A stretch of DNA of 64,000 bases from assembly GCF_001618865.1 (NCBI RefSeq), contig NZ_CP015136.1:3073001-3137000 (forward strand), given 5' to 3'. The notes beneath the pieces are model-generated. The model did no database searches and was not told the DNA's origin. It saw only the letters and a list, made by a program, of their open reading frames with translations. This DNA is from Luteitalea pratensis. Its GTDB lineage: Bacteria > Acidobacteriota > Vicinamibacteria > Vicinamibacterales > Vicinamibacteraceae. Made by a program: the position numbers and the translations under genes. Shown one piece after another: positions 33,394-39,982 of this stretch. Position 1 is the first letter of the stretch. Every line of letters starts with the position of its first letter.

Positions 33394-33496
33394 GCGCCGC
33401 GTCGACGATCGGTGCGGCCGTGTGGCGCAGTGGGTGTGATCCGGTTTCGTAGACACCTTCTGAAGGGTGGATACGATGGCGCCCAGGCCCGCGCGC

Positions 33497-33555
33497 GGCG
33501 TTGGTGCATGGCTGCTGGGGCCGCGTCGATGGGCGCGCGGTGGCCCTGCGCTCGT
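33497..33555 (+). mobile_element. IS5-family relic, left terminus only
   Basis: GGCGTTGGTGCATGGCTGCT at 33497 matches the left terminal repeat and its inner neighbour in the main copy; similarity fades after about 55 bases. No transposase sequence remains. Confidence 0.65.
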
Positions 33556-33627
33556 CCAAGTCGCATAGTAGGATTGCGGCCTCCAACTTTGTGCTCAGAT
33601 GGTGCCCTTTGGGAAAAGCGGTACATC

Positions 33628-34282
33628 ATGCGTCGCAGAACTGTTCTTGCCAATCTGTCCATGCTGGGGATCGAGGTCGCACGTGGAAGGTTCGGCCAAG
33701 CACATTCCGCACAAGGTGACTCCCATCGAACGAAAAGCAAGCTTCGCAAGATCGCTACGGAAGAAGCGTGCACTTTTCCCGAAATCGCCAGTGCCCTTCG
33801 TGACGTAGCCCGTGCCGGCGGAACCAATCTCGATCTCCCGTTGCTGACAGCGATCGACAACGCACCGACAGGAACCCAACCGCGCTTCTTGCCAGAGTTG
33901 CTCGATCTCGAGACACAGCGACTCGAGGACATGGATCGCCATGGCGTTGATGTCCAGTTGCTGTCGCTGACTGCGCCGGGCGTACAGATGTTCGACGCCG
34001 ATACCGGCTCGTCGCTCGCCATGGTCGCAAACGATCGACTGGCCGGGATACTTCCAGCGGAACTTCGCGATCACGACCAGCGGTGTTGACGATCCGCTGG
34101 CACTTCGATACTGCATCGACAGAATCGGGGCGGATAACATCATGTGGGCCATTGACTACCCGTTCCAGCCGACGGGTCCCGCAGTGGCGTTCATCGAGTC
34201 GGCACCAATGTCCGAGACTGACAGGGAAAAGATTGCGTACAAGAACGCTGAGCGCATCTTTCGTATTGCCGCCCTCGGCTGA
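33628..34282 (+). pseudogene. Amidohydrolase-2 family protein with internal deletion
   Basis: The first frame (33628-34089) has an export-like R-R-R-T-V-L start and then R-K-I-A-T-E-E-A-C-T-F-P-E-I and D-M-D-R-H-G-V-D-V-Q-L-L-S-L-T-A, the N-terminus of decarboxylase-like amidohydrolases. Directly after it, in another frame, comes the family's C-terminus: D-N-I-M-W-A-I-D-Y-P-F-Q (metal Asp block) and K-I-A-Y-K-N-A-E-R-I-F to TGA 34282. Roughly 150 middle residues with the His ligands are missing. The protein cannot be active. It should be compared with the second amidohydrolase relic at 20437. Confidence 0.75.
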
Positions 34283-34349
34283 GCCGAGGCTACGAACGGT
34301 GCGCGGTGGGTGAGTCGCAACTGTGACCTTGACGGTCTGGATTCCGGAT

Positions 34350-34563
34350 GCGGCAATCGAGAACGCCTTCTTCCGCTACAAGCCCATCATTGGCGATGGC
34401 CTTCGGGCCCGTAGTGGTGGTGGCCGGTCAGTTGAGGCGAGCCTTGCGTGTGGCGCCCTGAATCGGATGACCGCGCTTGGCAGGCCCGAGTCGTCTGCGA
34501 TCACTCGGCGACGAGCCGTGGGTTGGGGGAGTGCCTCTCCAGATCGAGCCATGCACCAACGCC
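34350..34563 (+). mobile_element. IS5-family relic, right end
   Basis: It begins inside the transposase at I-E-N-A-F-F-R-Y-K-P-I-I-G-D-G, ends with the terminal repeat at 34563, and is otherwise close to the main copy. It sits between the amidohydrolase relic and the His-rich gene. Confidence 0.75.
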
Positions 34564-34624
34564 GCGTTGCGGCGATGTCCGGTTCGCGGCGGTCTAGCGT
34601 TTGTAATCAGGAGGGGGGAACTGC

Positions 34625-35155
34625 ATGGCTCGAAAAAGCGCATCCGACGCCAGGCCGAGGAGGCCAGCGCTGTCGAAAACCGGCGAGATCACGGCAGACG
34701 CCAGCCTCGTGCAGGCGCAGAAGAACGCGGAGTACTTCAAGAAACTGCTCACCGACATGCACGCGCACGGCGACATGGACTCGGTTCGTGAAGCCGACCA
34801 CAAGGGCCACCACATCGTCATCACCACGACCTACAAGATCACGATCGACGGGAAGCCGTTCACGGCCGCGCTGGGCGTGACCAACGACGGGAGCGTGCAC
34901 TACCACGGCATGCCGAACGTCGGGTTCGACTCCGCCATCGAGCTCATGAAGGCCGTCATCGACACGTTCGTCGACGACTTCAGTGGTGGCGGCGGTCACG
35001 GCGAGGATCACGGGCCTGGCGCTCACGAGCATGGCGGCGACCACGACCACGGCATGATCGCGGCGAGACCTCGCCCGCGGAAGAAGGCCGCACCGACGCG
35101 GACCAAGACGACGACAAGAAAGCCGCGGCGTTCGGCGACACGCGCGCGCCGGTAG
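34625..35155 (+). CDS. Basic protein with His-rich metal-binding-like segment, tyrosinase neighbour
   Basis: The protein has 176 residues after a GGAGGGG site. A compact middle domain (about 20-115) includes K-N-A-E-Y-F-K-K-L-L-T-D-M-H, H-K-G-H-H-I-V-I-T-T-T-Y-K-I-T and A-A-L-G-V-T-N-D-G-S-V-H-Y-H-G. It is followed by a Gly/His/Asp stretch (about 120-143, reading G-G-H-G-E-D-H and E-H-G-G-D-H-D-H-G) and an Arg/Lys/Thr-rich tail. No signal peptide is visible. The stop is 11 bases before the tyrosinase start, so the two form an operon. The His segment suggests copper handling for the tyrosinase, in the manner of Streptomyces MelC1, but there is no sequence similarity to claim. Family unknown. 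Confidence 0.7.
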   Translation: MARKSASDARPRRPALSKTGEITADASLVQAQKNAEYFKKLLTDMHAHGDMDSVREADHKGHHIVITTTYKITIDGKPFTAALGVTNDGSVHYHGMPNVGFDSAIELMKAVIDTFVDDFSGGGGHGEDHGPGAHEHGGDHDHGMIAARPRPRKKAAPTRTKTTTRKPRRSATRARR

Positions 35156-35166
35156 GAGGGCGGACC

Positions 35167-36075
35167 ATGGCCGTTCGAAAGAACATCGTTACCGACGCCG
35201 CCTCGCGCCAGAAGTACGTCCAGGGCACGCTGGCACTCAAGGCCCAGTTCACGGGCGTCACCACGTCGACGCTCGGCATTCCGGGCCCGAACCGCCAGGT
35301 CAGTACCTGGGATCGGTTCGTCGCCTGGCACAGTGCCGTCATGGGCGTCGCACACTCGAGGCCCATCTTCCTGCCCTGGCACCGGATGATGCTCCGTACG
35401 CTCGAGCAGTTGATGCAGCAGGCGCTCAACGATCCGAATTTCGGCCTGCCGTACTGGGATTGGGCCGCAGACGGCCAGCTGTCCAACGCCGCGCAACTCT
35501 CGGCTCCGGTCTGGAGTAACAACTGCATGGGCACCGCGTCGTCTGCGCCGGGCCCCTATACACTCGTCGCTTTTCCCATTCGACTCGCGTCGAACAACGC
35601 CGGCATGCTCGTCCAGGTCAACCGCCCGCTGCAGCGGACACGAGGTGCAGGGGTGCAAGGGATGCCGAACCCGTCACTGCCCAAGAAAGCCTCGACCGCG
35701 GCGGCGCTGGCAACGCTTCCCTACGACGCCGCGCCCTGGAACCGGAACTCCACGGGATTCCGCAACCGGGTCGAAGGCTGGAATCCCCCGAACGATCTGC
35801 ACAACCTGGTACACATCTGGGTGGGCGGTGACATGCTGCCGGCCTCGTCACCGAACGATCCGGTCTTTTACCTGAATCACTGCAACGAGGATCGGATCTG
35901 GGAGGCCTGGATGGTCAGGAACGGGCGCAATTACCTGCCAACCAGCACGACGCCCGGCGGGCCCGCCGGCCAGCGGCTCAACGATCCGCTCGCGTCGCCA
36001 TTCGGACCGTCGGTCACGTCGGCCCAGGTCCTGAATATCTCGAGCGCCTACACCTACGACACGTTGACCGTCTGA
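35167..36075 (+). CDS. Tyrosinase-type dicopper oxidase
   Basis: The 302-residue protein has both copper sites. CuA is R-F-V-A-W-H-S with A-H-S-R-P-I-F-L-P-W-H-R. CuB is D-L-H-N-L-V-H-I-W-V-G-G with D-P-V-F-Y-L-N-H-C-N-E-D-R-I-W, so all six His ligands are visible. The L-P-Y-W-D-W motif lies between. No signal peptide is seen, so the enzyme is cytoplasmic or exported with a partner. Members hydroxylate phenols and oxidise o-diphenols; specificity is not readable. AGGAGGG lies before the ATG. It follows the His-rich gene by 11 bases. An IS copy begins 28 bases after its stop. No C-terminal lid domain is present. Confidence 0.9.
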   Translation: MAVRKNIVTDAASRQKYVQGTLALKAQFTGVTTSTLGIPGPNRQVSTWDRFVAWHSAVMGVAHSRPIFLPWHRMMLRTLEQLMQQALNDPNFGLPYWDWAADGQLSNAAQLSAPVWSNNCMGTASSAPGPYTLVAFPIRLASNNAGMLVQVNRPLQRTRGAGVQGMPNPSLPKKASTAAALATLPYDAAPWNRNSTGFRNRVEGWNPPNDLHNLVHIWVGGDMLPASSPNDPVFYLNHCNEDRIWEAWMVRNGRNYLPTSTTPGGPAGQRLNDPLASPFGPSVTSAQVLNISSAYTYDTLTV

Positions 36076-36102
36076 CCGGCGCGCGACGCGTTGCCGTCTC
36101 GC

Positions 36103-37188
36103 GGCGTTGGGCATGGCTGCTGGGCCGGCCGTCGATGGGCCCGGTGTGGGACCAGTGGCGTGTGTCGGCCGCCCACGCCGCATGATCGTGGGATGAAGTC
36201 GCGCGTGCATCCCACGCACAAGACGCACTATCGGGTGGGGAATTGGCGGGCGTACGAGCGCGCTCTCGTCAGGAGGGGCGACGTGACACTGTGGCTGTCC
36301 CCAGACGCTCGGGTTGCCTCGGGAGTTCCGCCGTCCGGTCGAGCAGGCGGACAGCAGCGTTTCTCGAATCTGGCCATCGAGACGGGGCTGACCCTCCGAC
36401 TCGTGTTTCGCTTGCCAATGCGCCAAACGGAGGGCTTCCTCCGGTCGATCCTGACCGTGATGCGCACCAATCTCGACGCCCCGGACCACACGACGCTCTC
36501 GCGGCGGGAGCAGTTGCTGAACGTGGCGGGGCACAAGACCCTCGCCACAGGACCGCTGCATCTGATCGTCGACAGCACGGGCCTCTCAGTGGTGGGTGAA
36601 GGGGAGTGGGCGGCGGCGAAACACGGCGGCCGTGGCACGCGAGGCTGGAAGAAGCTGCACTTGGGTGTCGACCGCTCCGGCATGATCGTCGCGCACGCGC
36701 TGACCGAGGCGACGGTCGATGAGGCAACCGTGGGCATTGACCTGATCGGCGCGGCGGCCGGTGGTATCGCCAGCGTCACGGCGGACGCGGCTTACGACAC
36801 GGTGGCTTTTATGAGGCCGCGAGCGCGCGACACGCACAGGTGGTCGTGCCGCCGATCAGGACGGCAAAGGTGTCGCGCCACGGACCACGCTCGAGTGTGC
36901 ACGATCGCACGATCACCGACGTGGAAACGCTCGGTCGGCGCGAATGGCAGAAGGCCTCGGGCTACAACCGGCAGGTCCGCGTCGAGAATGCCTTCTTCCG
37001 CTACAAGTCCATCATTAGCGATGGTCTTCGGGCCCGTAGTGGTGGTGGCCGAGAAGTCGAGGCGAGCCTGGCGTGCCGCGTCCTGAATCGGATGATCGCG
37101 CTTGGCAAGCTCGAGTCGTTTGCGATCACTCGGTGACGAACCGTGAGTTGGGGAAGTGCCTCTCTAGGTCGAGCCATGCACCAACGCC
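36103..37188 (+). mobile_element. IS5-family insertion element, near-complete, 1086 bp
   Basis: The element is bounded by inverted repeats: left GGCGTTGG-GCATGGCT (one T missing relative to other copies) and right AGCCATGCACCAACGCC. The flanking bases CTCGC and GCGAG also pair, so the repeats may extend further. No direct target duplication is evident. The only long gene is the transposase at 36193-37136, which is frameshifted. Fragments of the same element occur at 18730, 28428, 29510, 33497, 34350, 38001, 40012, 44244 and 50400. The element is probably no longer mobile by itself. Confidence 0.85.
36193..37136 (+). pseudogene. IS5-family DDE transposase, frameshifted
   Basis: The first frame starts M-K-S-R-V-H-P-T and includes the first Asp block L-I-V-D-S-T-G-L-S and K-L-H-L-G-V-D. 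The second Asp block is T-A-D-A-A-Y-D. At the TTTT run near 36807-36810 one base is missing, and the rest continues in another frame: A-Q-V-V-V-P-P, then the Glu block V-E-N-A-F-F-R-Y-K-S and A-C-R-V-L-N-R-M to TGA at 37134-37136. Restoring one base would give a protein of about 314 residues, normal for IS5-type transposases. All three catalytic residues are present in the two parts. Programmed frameshifting is known in some IS5 subgroups but is unproven here. Confidence 0.82.
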
Positions 37189-37319
37189 GCGAGCTACTGC
37201 AACACGGCGCGAGTCGTTCGAGCCGGCGATCAGGCTTGGCCGCGTTCGAGCTGCCGTGCGAACCGTGACAGGTGCAGGAAGCCCCACCGCATCGCGACGT
37301 CGGCGACGCCGGTCGAGTC

Positions 37320-38000: not shown

Positions 38001-38390
38001 GGCGTTGGTGCACGGCTGCTGGGCCGCCGTCGATTGGCCGGCCGTTGAGCCCTTGGGGTGGTGACTGCCCACGCCGCATGATCGTGGGATGAAGTCGCGG
38101 GTGCATCCCACATACAAGACGCACTATCGGGTGGGGAACTGGCGGGTGTACGAGCGCGCCCTCGTCAGTCGGGGCGACCTGACCTGTGGTTCTCGCCAGC
38201 CGCCAGGGCCGCGTAGGGCGTGCCGCCGTCCCGGGCAGCAGTGGTTCTCGGATCTCGGATCGAGGCGAGCTTGACGTACCGTGTCCTCAACCGGATGACC
38301 GGGCTTGGCAGACCCGAGTCGTCTGCGATCAGTCGGTGACGATCCGTGATTTGGGTGGTACGAGTCCAGTGTGAGCCATGCGCCAACGCC
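38001..38390 (+). mobile_element. MITE-like internally deleted IS5-family derivative, 390 bp
   Basis: Both terminal repeats are present: left GGCGTTGGTGCACGGCT at 38001 and right ending in GCGCCAACGCC at 38390. About 230 bases of the left side (through the transposase start M-K-S-R-V-H-P-T-Y) join directly to the last 125 bases of the right side. Some 700 internal bases are missing compared with 36103-37188. It could have been moved by a transposase acting from elsewhere. Its right end lies 14 bases before the sheath start codon. Confidence 0.8.
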
Positions 38391-38404
38391 GGAGATCGAC
38401 GGCA

Positions 38405-39982
38405 ATGCCTGAGTACCTGTCGCCAGGAGTCCACATCGACGAGATCGAACCGGGGCCGCGGCCGATCGAAGGCGTGCCCACGAGCACCGCAGGCTGTCTG
38501 GGAGAAACGGCGCGTGGCCCGCTGGAACCCCGTCTGATCACCGGGTTCGAGGAGTTCAAGCGGATCTACGGCGGCTATCTGTCGGTGGACATCTCGACGC
38601 TGCCGTTTGCCGTGGAGGGGTTCTTCATGAACGGCGGCCGGCGCATGCTGGTGGCCCGGATCGCGGCGGCCGATGCGGTCGCCGCGCTCGGCGATCACGA
38701 CGGGACTCTCCGCCTGTCGGCCATCGGCCCGGGCGACTGGGGCAACCGCATCGCCGTCAAGATCGAGCCGGGCAGTCTCCAGATCGCGGGGCAGCCGGCC
38801 ACGCACTTCAAGCTCACCGCGATGTGTTGGGACGTGGCGCCGCCAACCGATCCGCCGATCGATCCGACGGCGGCCGAACACGTCACCAATTCCGACCGTC
38901 GCGAGCCGACCCTGCTCGAAATCTACGACAACCTCGTGGCCGACCCGGACTCGGTCGACTTCTACGAAAGACGCCTCAACGGCAGCTCCAGCCTGCTGCG
39001 GGCCCAGCGTCTGGCGCCCGGCGTCCCGCAGCCACTGGCGCTGGTGATGCTGGCAAGTCTCGGCAATGCCGGCGCAAACGGATCGGCAGTGACGGTCCTC
39101 GACTATCGCGGCCGCGAGCTGCCGCCGCTCCCCGACAGCACGGCCTATAAGACCGGCCTGCAGGGCTTCGCACAGATCGACGAGATCGCCATCCTCATCG
39201 CGCCTGCTCATCACGTCATCCCCAACCTGACGACCGAGATCATCGCGCATTGCACGTTGCTGCGCGATCGGTTCGCCATCCTGCACTCCGCGCCGGGGAC
39301 CGACACGCTGGCCAACATCACCGCGATCCGCCCGCCGCAAGACACCGCGTTCGCTGCGTTCTACTTCCCGTGGATCAATGTGTTCAACCCGTTGATCGAT
39401 CAGGACTCGTTGGTACCGCCGTCGGGCCATATCGCGGGCATCTACGCAAAGACCGACGTCGAACGCGGCGTGTTCAAGGCCCCGGTCAACGAGATCGTGG
39501 TCGGCGCGCGGTCGCTCGAATTCCAGATCAACAATCAGCAGCAGGACATACTCAACGCGCACGGTGTCAACTGCGTGCGCCTGTTCCCGTCGCGCGGCAT
39601 TCTCGTATGGGGCGCGAGAACCGCCTCGAGCAACAGTCAGTGGAGATACATCTCGGTGCGTCGTCTGCTCCTGTTCCTGGGTGAGTCGATCGACGAGGGC
39701 ACGCAGTGGGTCGTGTTCGAGCCGAACGACGAGCGGCTATGGGCGCGTGTGAAACAGGCCATCACGCAGTTCCTGGGCAGCCAGTGGCGGAGCGGTGCTC
39801 TGATGGGCGCGACACAGCAGGAGGCCTTCTTCGTGACGATTGATCGCACGACGATGACTCAGGACGACATCGACAATGGCCGCTTGATTTGCCTCATCGG
39901 CGTCGCCCCGTTGAAGCCGAAGGAGTTCGTCATGTTCCGCCTCGCGCGGCTCAAGGACGGCTCCGAGATAACCGAGTTCTGA
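38405..39982 (+). CDS. Contractile tail sheath protein (phage/eCIS type), solitary
   Basis: The ATG at 38405, with GGAG 10 bases upstream, gives 525 residues. The N-terminus M-P-E-Y-L-S-P-G-V-H-I-D-E-I-E and the block G-V-P-T-S-T-A-G-C-L-G-E-T are the hallmark start of phage tail sheath and extracellular contractile injection system sheath proteins. The C-terminal subtilisin-like sheath domain has C-V-R-L-F-P-S-R-G-I-L-V-W-G-A-R-T and ends with F-V-M-F-R-L-A-R-L. Sheath subunits surround an inner tube and contract to drive it through a membrane. No tube, baseplate, spike or ATPase gene lies within this window. IS relics flank it at 38001-38390 and 40012-40256. The frame is clean throughout. 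Confidence 0.9.
   Translation: MPEYLSPGVHIDEIEPGPRPIEGVPTSTAGCLGETARGPLEPRLITGFEEFKRIYGGYLSVDISTLPFAVEGFFMNGGRRMLVARIAAADAVAALGDHDGTLRLSAIGPGDWGNRIAVKIEPGSLQIAGQPATHFKLTAMCWDVAPPTDPPIDPTAAEHVTNSDRREPTLLEIYDNLVADPDSVDFYERRLNGSSSLLRAQRLAPGVPQPLALVMLASLGNAGANGSAVTVLDYRGRELPPLPDSTAYKTGLQGFAQIDEIAILIAPAHHVIPNLTTEIIAHCTLLRDRFAILHSAPGTDTLANITAIRPPQDTAFAAFYFPWINVFNPLIDQDSLVPPSGHIAGIYAKTDVERGVFKAPVNEIVVGARSLEFQINNQQQDILNAHGVNCVRLFPSRGILVWGARTASSNSQWRYISVRRLLLFLGESIDEGTQWVVFEPNDERLWARVKQAITQFLGSQWRSGALMGATQQEAFFVTIDRTTMTQDDIDNGRLICLIGVAPLKPKEFVMFRLARLKDGSEITEF

Follow-up and report, generated by a model that had tools for sequence, protein, structure and literature searches.

We found that a small His-rich protein of Luteitalea pratensis whose gene lies immediately before a tyrosinase gene, referred to here as the helper, is a highly diverged and unannotated relative of the Streptomyces caddie protein MelC1, as judged by profile comparison and predicted structure. 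Sequence, structural models and analogy with characterised systems together make it likely that the helper is a cytosolic assembly factor of the caddie type for the tyrosinase beside it. MelC1 has been reported to function in copper incorporation, activation and secretion of tyrosinase (PMC2758597). Reviews present the caddie as a protein of Streptomyces, assign it to family PF06236 and regard the other bacterial tyrosinases as having a lid or no helper (PMC9454253, PMC11608171).

The helper and tyrosinase genes form a closely spaced pair

The pair lies within the window, the whole stretch of L. pratensis DNA analysed (64,000 nucleotides of contig NZ_CP015136.1), with the following features.

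34609-34614, plus strand: AGGAGG ribosome-binding site of the helper gene (direct reading of the sequence)
34625-35155, plus strand: small helper gene, 176 amino acids, ATG start; open reading frame for a divergent caddie (MelC1-like) protein that lacks a signal peptide
34694-34756, plus strand: helix predicted near the N-terminus of the helper, residues 24-44, not part of the conserved core (AlphaFold2 model)
34769-34993, plus strand: caddie-like conserved core of the helper, about residues 49-123 (62-member alignment and predicted fold)
34985-35053, plus strand: Gly/His/Asp segment of the helper, residues 121-143, with six His (sequence; predicted unstructured by AlphaFold2)
35063-35152, plus strand: basic Lys/Arg/Thr/Pro tail of the helper, residues 147-176 (sequence; predicted unstructured by AlphaFold2)
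35154-35159, plus strand: AGGAGG ribosome-binding site of the tyrosinase gene, overlapping the helper stop codon (direct reading)
35167-36075, plus strand: tyrosinase gene, 302 amino acids, ATG start (Pfam PF00264 and alignment)

Both open reading frames lie where the original prediction had placed them, 11 bases apart, and the sequence bears out its description of the small protein as a compact domain followed by a Gly/His/Asp segment and a basic tail. That description differs from the sequence in one detail, the number of His residues: seven were predicted within about 20 residues, while the segment contains six within 18 (residues 125, 129, 134, 136, 140 and 142). The overlap of the tyrosinase ribosome-binding site with the helper stop codon suggests that the starts of the two genes are probably translationally coupled. 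We found no promoter-like site upstream of the pair; the host may use other promoters.

The tyrosinase matches PF00264 (E 1.3e-38) and contains all six copper-binding His (H55, H63, H72, H212, H216 and H238), at alignment columns that are invariant among five bacterial tyrosinases. No secretion signal was apparent in the enzyme by eye.

Helper homologues precede related tyrosinases in at least nine phyla

Single-sequence searches with the L. pratensis helper returned nothing real outside its own genome, and its relatives surfaced only when tyrosinase served as bait. Scanning with an alignment of tyrosinases returned 80 related tyrosinase loci, and all open reading frames of these loci were searched for helper homologues by phmmer. 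We found a homologue directly upstream and on the same strand in 65 of the 80 loci (E 1e-28 to 6e-11). Since the core recurs in this position so often, the arrangement of helper and tyrosinase is not due to chance. Among the 15 remaining loci, two are truncated by the contig edge, two have MelC1 in its place, five have a caddie-like open reading frame of another, mostly shorter type, and in six no helper was found.

The helper is thus not particular to one locus, as its homologues span at least nine bacterial phyla (Actinomycetota, Pseudomonadota, Nitrospirota, Chloroflexota, Acidobacteriota, Verrucomicrobiota, Planctomycetota, Zixiibacteriota, Myxococcota and Ignavibacteriota). The carriers include nitrifiers, methanotrophs, pseudomonads, roseobacters and acidobacteria. 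Two weak helper matches in the same phylum (L006 and L007) lie within unrelated genes that have no tyrosinase nearby, and were therefore taken as chance. Viral contigs contained no relative of the L. pratensis tyrosinase.

Within 42 carrier genomes, 43 of 43 helper copies lie beside a tyrosinase on the same strand, while additional tyrosinases in these genomes lack this helper. A sample of 632 genomes contained five helper copies, partly from the same genomes as above, all beside a tyrosinase and none alone. The original prediction had named a domain that is common away from tyrosinases as an argument against it; because all copies in both sets of genomes adjoin a tyrosinase, this check came out in favour of the prediction.

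The two proteins are also inherited together. In a tree of 112 tyrosinases, a branch with SH-aLRT support of 99 separates all helper-bearing enzymes from the rest; grouped with them are two loci at contig edges and one locus with no detectable helper (L088). On the other side are enzymes associated with MelC1 or MelD1 and those without an L. pratensis-type helper. The presence of the helper requires four changes on this tree, compared to a mean of 35.8 when labels are shuffled. Furthermore, helper distances and tyrosinase distances are correlated (Mantel r 0.83), and none of 2000 permutations gave a value as high.

As a separate observation, one tyrosinase-like protein of Acidobacteriota (L009:1495-3792, minus strand) has a very long N-terminus of Ser/Gly/Asp repeats, and two of its copper-B His are replaced (GMNNLVRTW compared to LHNLVHIW). 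This protein is probably not an active type-3 copper enzyme.

The helper has a conserved core and variable ends

Across an alignment of 62 helper members, residues Y70, G89, P97 and S103 of the core are invariant, and R55, G61, T68, D75, V85, V91, H94 and A104 are nearly so, with H94 kept in 60 members. The 20 residues before the core contain at least two His in 54 of the 62. The C-terminal tail is the least conserved part of the protein: members with only a basic tail, with only a His tail, or with a tail of a few residues all occur. Overall, His makes up 12.7% of the tail residues in the family; 41 of 62 members have at least three tail His and 13 have none. The helper of a Luteitalea metagenome-assembled genome (L021) contains the same Gly/His/Asp segment and strongly basic end as the L. 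pratensis protein.

Established family libraries do not recognise the helper. The L. pratensis protein had no match in Pfam, NCBIfam or PADLOC, and a sequence search of the PDB gave nothing significant. Similarly, the 62 aligned members belong to no convincing Pfam or NCBIfam family; nine of them match Pfam CGDB weakly, with a best E of 0.004. The Pfam MelC1 model (PF06236) matched neither the L. pratensis helper nor any of the 62 members at its curated cut-off, and one member (L059) matches the MelC1 HMM directly with an E of 2e-4. By hydropathy, none of the 62 members contains an N-terminal hydrophobic stretch, and we found no Tat signal.

The helper core is related to the Streptomyces caddie

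We compared the aligned helper cores (62 rows) with 23 sequences of MelC1 and MelD1, almost all of them collected through PF06236, using hhalign. The two profiles matched with a probability of 95.3 and a score of 47.4 across 59 columns, which cover the core from end to end, while 100 column shuffles reached a score of at most 20.6 and a probability of at most 9.6. MelC1 is represented in the PDB by entries such as 1WX2 (chain B), 2ZMX (chain B) and 6J2U (chain A). AlphaFold2 modelled the full helper with a pLDDT of 71 and the core with a pLDDT of 83 and a pTM of 0.67. When the core model was compared to the PDB by VIA-align, the top 20 entries were all Streptomyces caddies (Z 3.4-4.5), the best of which superimposed at 2.0 Å over 54 of 77 residues. 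The next fold was SH2 (Z 2.8); since it ranks below the caddies, we took the similarity as a shared arrangement. Foldseek likewise placed caddies in the first six positions, with E-values that are not significant (0.25 at best). Low absolute structural scores are expected because the domain is small and diverged, and the case for homology rests on the combination of profile and predicted structure.

The original prediction had suggested for the small protein a caddie-like role with no visible homology to the Streptomyces protein. The proposed role gains strong support from linkage, co-inheritance, profile homology and predicted fold, but the second part does not stand, as both the profile-profile comparison and the predicted structure find MelC1.

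Similarities between the helper and MelC1 are the position of the gene (directly upstream of the tyrosinase and on the same strand), the predicted core fold, and a profile match over the full core that includes the motif Y-x-G-R/H-x-I ... Y-x-V/I-x-V/I-D-G ... D-G. There are also differences. The helper lacks both a PF06236 match and a Tat signal, and its partner tyrosinases form a separate clade. Known helpers do not all carry a Tat signal, however, as the motif is absent from MelD1 of S. coelicolor (PMC2758597). In addition, MelC1 contains a His-rich hairpin inside its core; the helper family lacks this hairpin and has His-rich stretches before and after the core instead.

Residues at the metal site also differ. 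The residues mutated in caddie crystal structures, according to the titles of the PDB entries, are H82, M84, H97 and Y98, and these align with A82, G84, P97 and N98 of the L. pratensis helper, where the alignment at 97 and 98 is possibly off by one. His occupies position 82 in 41 of the 62 helper members, and the residue following N98 is Tyr in 33 of 62 and Val in the L. pratensis protein. Taken together, our data suggest that the helper family shares its descent, and probably its task, with the caddie while lying outside the described family and using different metal-site residues.

The helper may deliver copper to a probably intracellular tyrosinase

Because it is homologous to MelC1 and its setting is analogous to that of the intracellular enzyme MelD2, we reasoned that the helper would act as a caddie that holds the apo-enzyme and aids copper loading. 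The core would dock over the mouth of the tyrosinase active site and keep the apo-enzyme folded and inactive, and copper would reach the dinuclear site through the helper. Since H82, M84, H97 and Y98 of the caddie are not kept, a copper relay would have to rely on other ligands. H94, which is nearly invariant, and the flexible His-rich stretches that flank the core would be the best candidates, and these flexible arms could perhaps collect copper. Since no secretion signal is recognisable in either partner, the holoenzyme probably remains intracellular, as reported for MelD2 of Streptomyces, which is not secreted (PMC2758597). Within the cell it may oxidise phenolics.

The helper resembles MelD1, encoded in the intracellular melD operon of Streptomyces (PMC2758597), in probably serving a tyrosinase that is not secreted and in the order of the genes, helper then enzyme. 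Unlike the helper, the MelD1-type sequences we collected match PF06236 and keep the H-Y motif of caddies (DHY), and their partner enzymes group with MelC2, apart from the L. pratensis-type clade. PpoB2 of Marinomonas mediterranea (COG5486) is likewise a partner in a tyrosinase operon; it is encoded by the second gene and is involved in copper transfer (PMC2855505). However, PpoB2 is a putative transmembrane metal-binding protein whose mechanism is said to differ from that of the Streptomyces chaperones (PMC2855505), while the L. pratensis helper looks soluble, charged and caddie-like, with neither an N-terminal hydrophobic segment nor a transmembrane region.

An alternative is that the helper is only a lid of caddie fold that folds and silences the apo-tyrosinase while copper enters elsewhere and the tails aid solubility. 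Tyrosinases of Verrucomicrobium, Ralstonia and Burkholderia carry beta-rich C-terminal lid domains that cover the active site, block activity and have an analogous role (PMC9454253), although these lids are part of the enzyme chain and are removed by proteolysis while the helper is encoded by a separate upstream gene. Loss of the caddie relay residues and the members that lack tail His are consistent with such a lid. In contrast, the retention of H94 and the presence of at least two His just before the core in most members suggest metal contact, and MelC1, the nearest characterised relative, promotes copper incorporation (PMC2758597). We therefore consider a lid without a part in copper loading unlikely.

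It is less likely still, and in our view quite improbable, that the His-rich and basic tail is the main functional part, either as an anchor of the complex on DNA, polyphosphate or membrane or as a copper store, independently of enzyme maturation. The shared tail of the L. pratensis and L021 helpers agrees with this possibility, but within the family the tail is the most variable region, and it is the core that is conserved and linked to tyrosinase.

If the helpers act as caddies, as we favour, then expressing these tyrosinases in another host while leaving out the upstream gene should give poor or copper-free enzyme. The family would also provide a set of natural variants for studying copper handover without the known relay residues.

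Smaller caddie-like proteins occur upstream of other tyrosinases

We found that caddie-like cores of 60-90 residues are encoded directly upstream of other tyrosinases, at the following loci.

L079:1987-2427: minimal caddie-like open reading frame, cyanobacteria, upstream of a tyrosinase
L086:2182-2445: minimal caddie-like open reading frame, cyanobacteria, upstream of a tyrosinase
L083:843-1085: minimal caddie-like open reading frame, Anaerolineales (Chloroflexota), upstream of a tyrosinase
L090:2149-2472: minimal caddie-like open reading frame, Desulfobulbaceae, upstream of a tyrosinase
L095:1896-2429: minimal caddie-like open reading frame, Chloroflexia (Chloroflexota), upstream of a tyrosinase
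L016:2225-2425: minimal caddie-like open reading frame of 66 amino acids, plasmid of the haloarchaeon Haloarcula, preceding a tyrosinase-VWA fusion
L098 near 1086, minus strand: minimal caddie-like open reading frame at the third tyrosinase of Nitrosospira

The Haloarcula plasmid gene (L016:2426-5302) encodes a tyrosinase fused to a VWA-domain protein.

The profile of these mini-caddies matched the L. pratensis-type helper family with a probability of 97.4 (shuffled maximum 4.0) and MelC1 with a probability of 97.8 (shuffled maximum 1.0). Since the mini-caddies match both families, homology between helper and MelC1 is also supported transitively. Tentatively, these data can be read as a two-part proposal: that caddies are an ancient, mostly unannotated superfamily of many bacterial phyla and haloarchaea, and that the helper clade might load copper into cytosolic tyrosinases by a route different from that of MelC1, relying on H94 and on flexible arms rich in His that lie outside the core, where MelC1 has the H82/M84/H97 relay and the Tyr98 plug.

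A whole branch of tyrosinases is preceded by a helper that shares the caddie's descent, with smaller versions elsewhere, and the family libraries we tried recognised none of them. Not every bacterial tyrosinase needs a helper (PMC9454253). Tyrosinases assisted by a caddie probably occur far more widely than reviews state. In the open-licence literature we found no paper describing the L. pratensis-type helper family and no mention of a caddie-like protein or tyrosinase in Luteitalea pratensis; only four such papers pair tyrosinase with Nitrosospira, and we saw no treatment of the helper in them.

The pair was likely acquired or mobilised recently

The following insertion sequence features flank the pair.

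34357-34566, strand not assigned: IS5-like element remnant (3' end, 210 nucleotides) on the left side of the pair, sharing 90% identity with 36982-37191
36091-37086, plus strand: IS5-like transposase (DDE_Tnp_1_5), right of the pair, in the same orientation as the left remnant

Since IS5-like copies in the same orientation flank the pair, recent acquisition or mobilisation is likely. The idea that the helper is unrelated to tyrosinase, a chance neighbour brought by these elements, could appeal to the flanking copies and to two other genomes of the genus in which neither tyrosinase nor helper gene was found, but it is refuted by linkage, as adjacency and co-inheritance recur in at least nine phyla, and we give it almost no weight.

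Altogether, one IS5-like element is represented three times, as copies or remnants, within 4 kb around the pair (34357-34566, 36982-37191 and 38260-38391). To the left of the first, an open reading frame at 33412-34313 reads by eye as the start of an amidohydrolase-type phenolic-acid decarboxylase and ends early; it had no Pfam match at 0.001 and is likely a broken gene. A phage tail-sheath gene (PF04984/PF17482) is present at 38378-39982, and no other phage tail genes were found among the few neighbours scanned. The L. pratensis genome, a single contig of 7.48 Mb, contains one intact tyrosinase; a second, unrelated tyrosinase near 1.12 Mb (L002:380-2116, minus strand) is broken by frame changes or stops.
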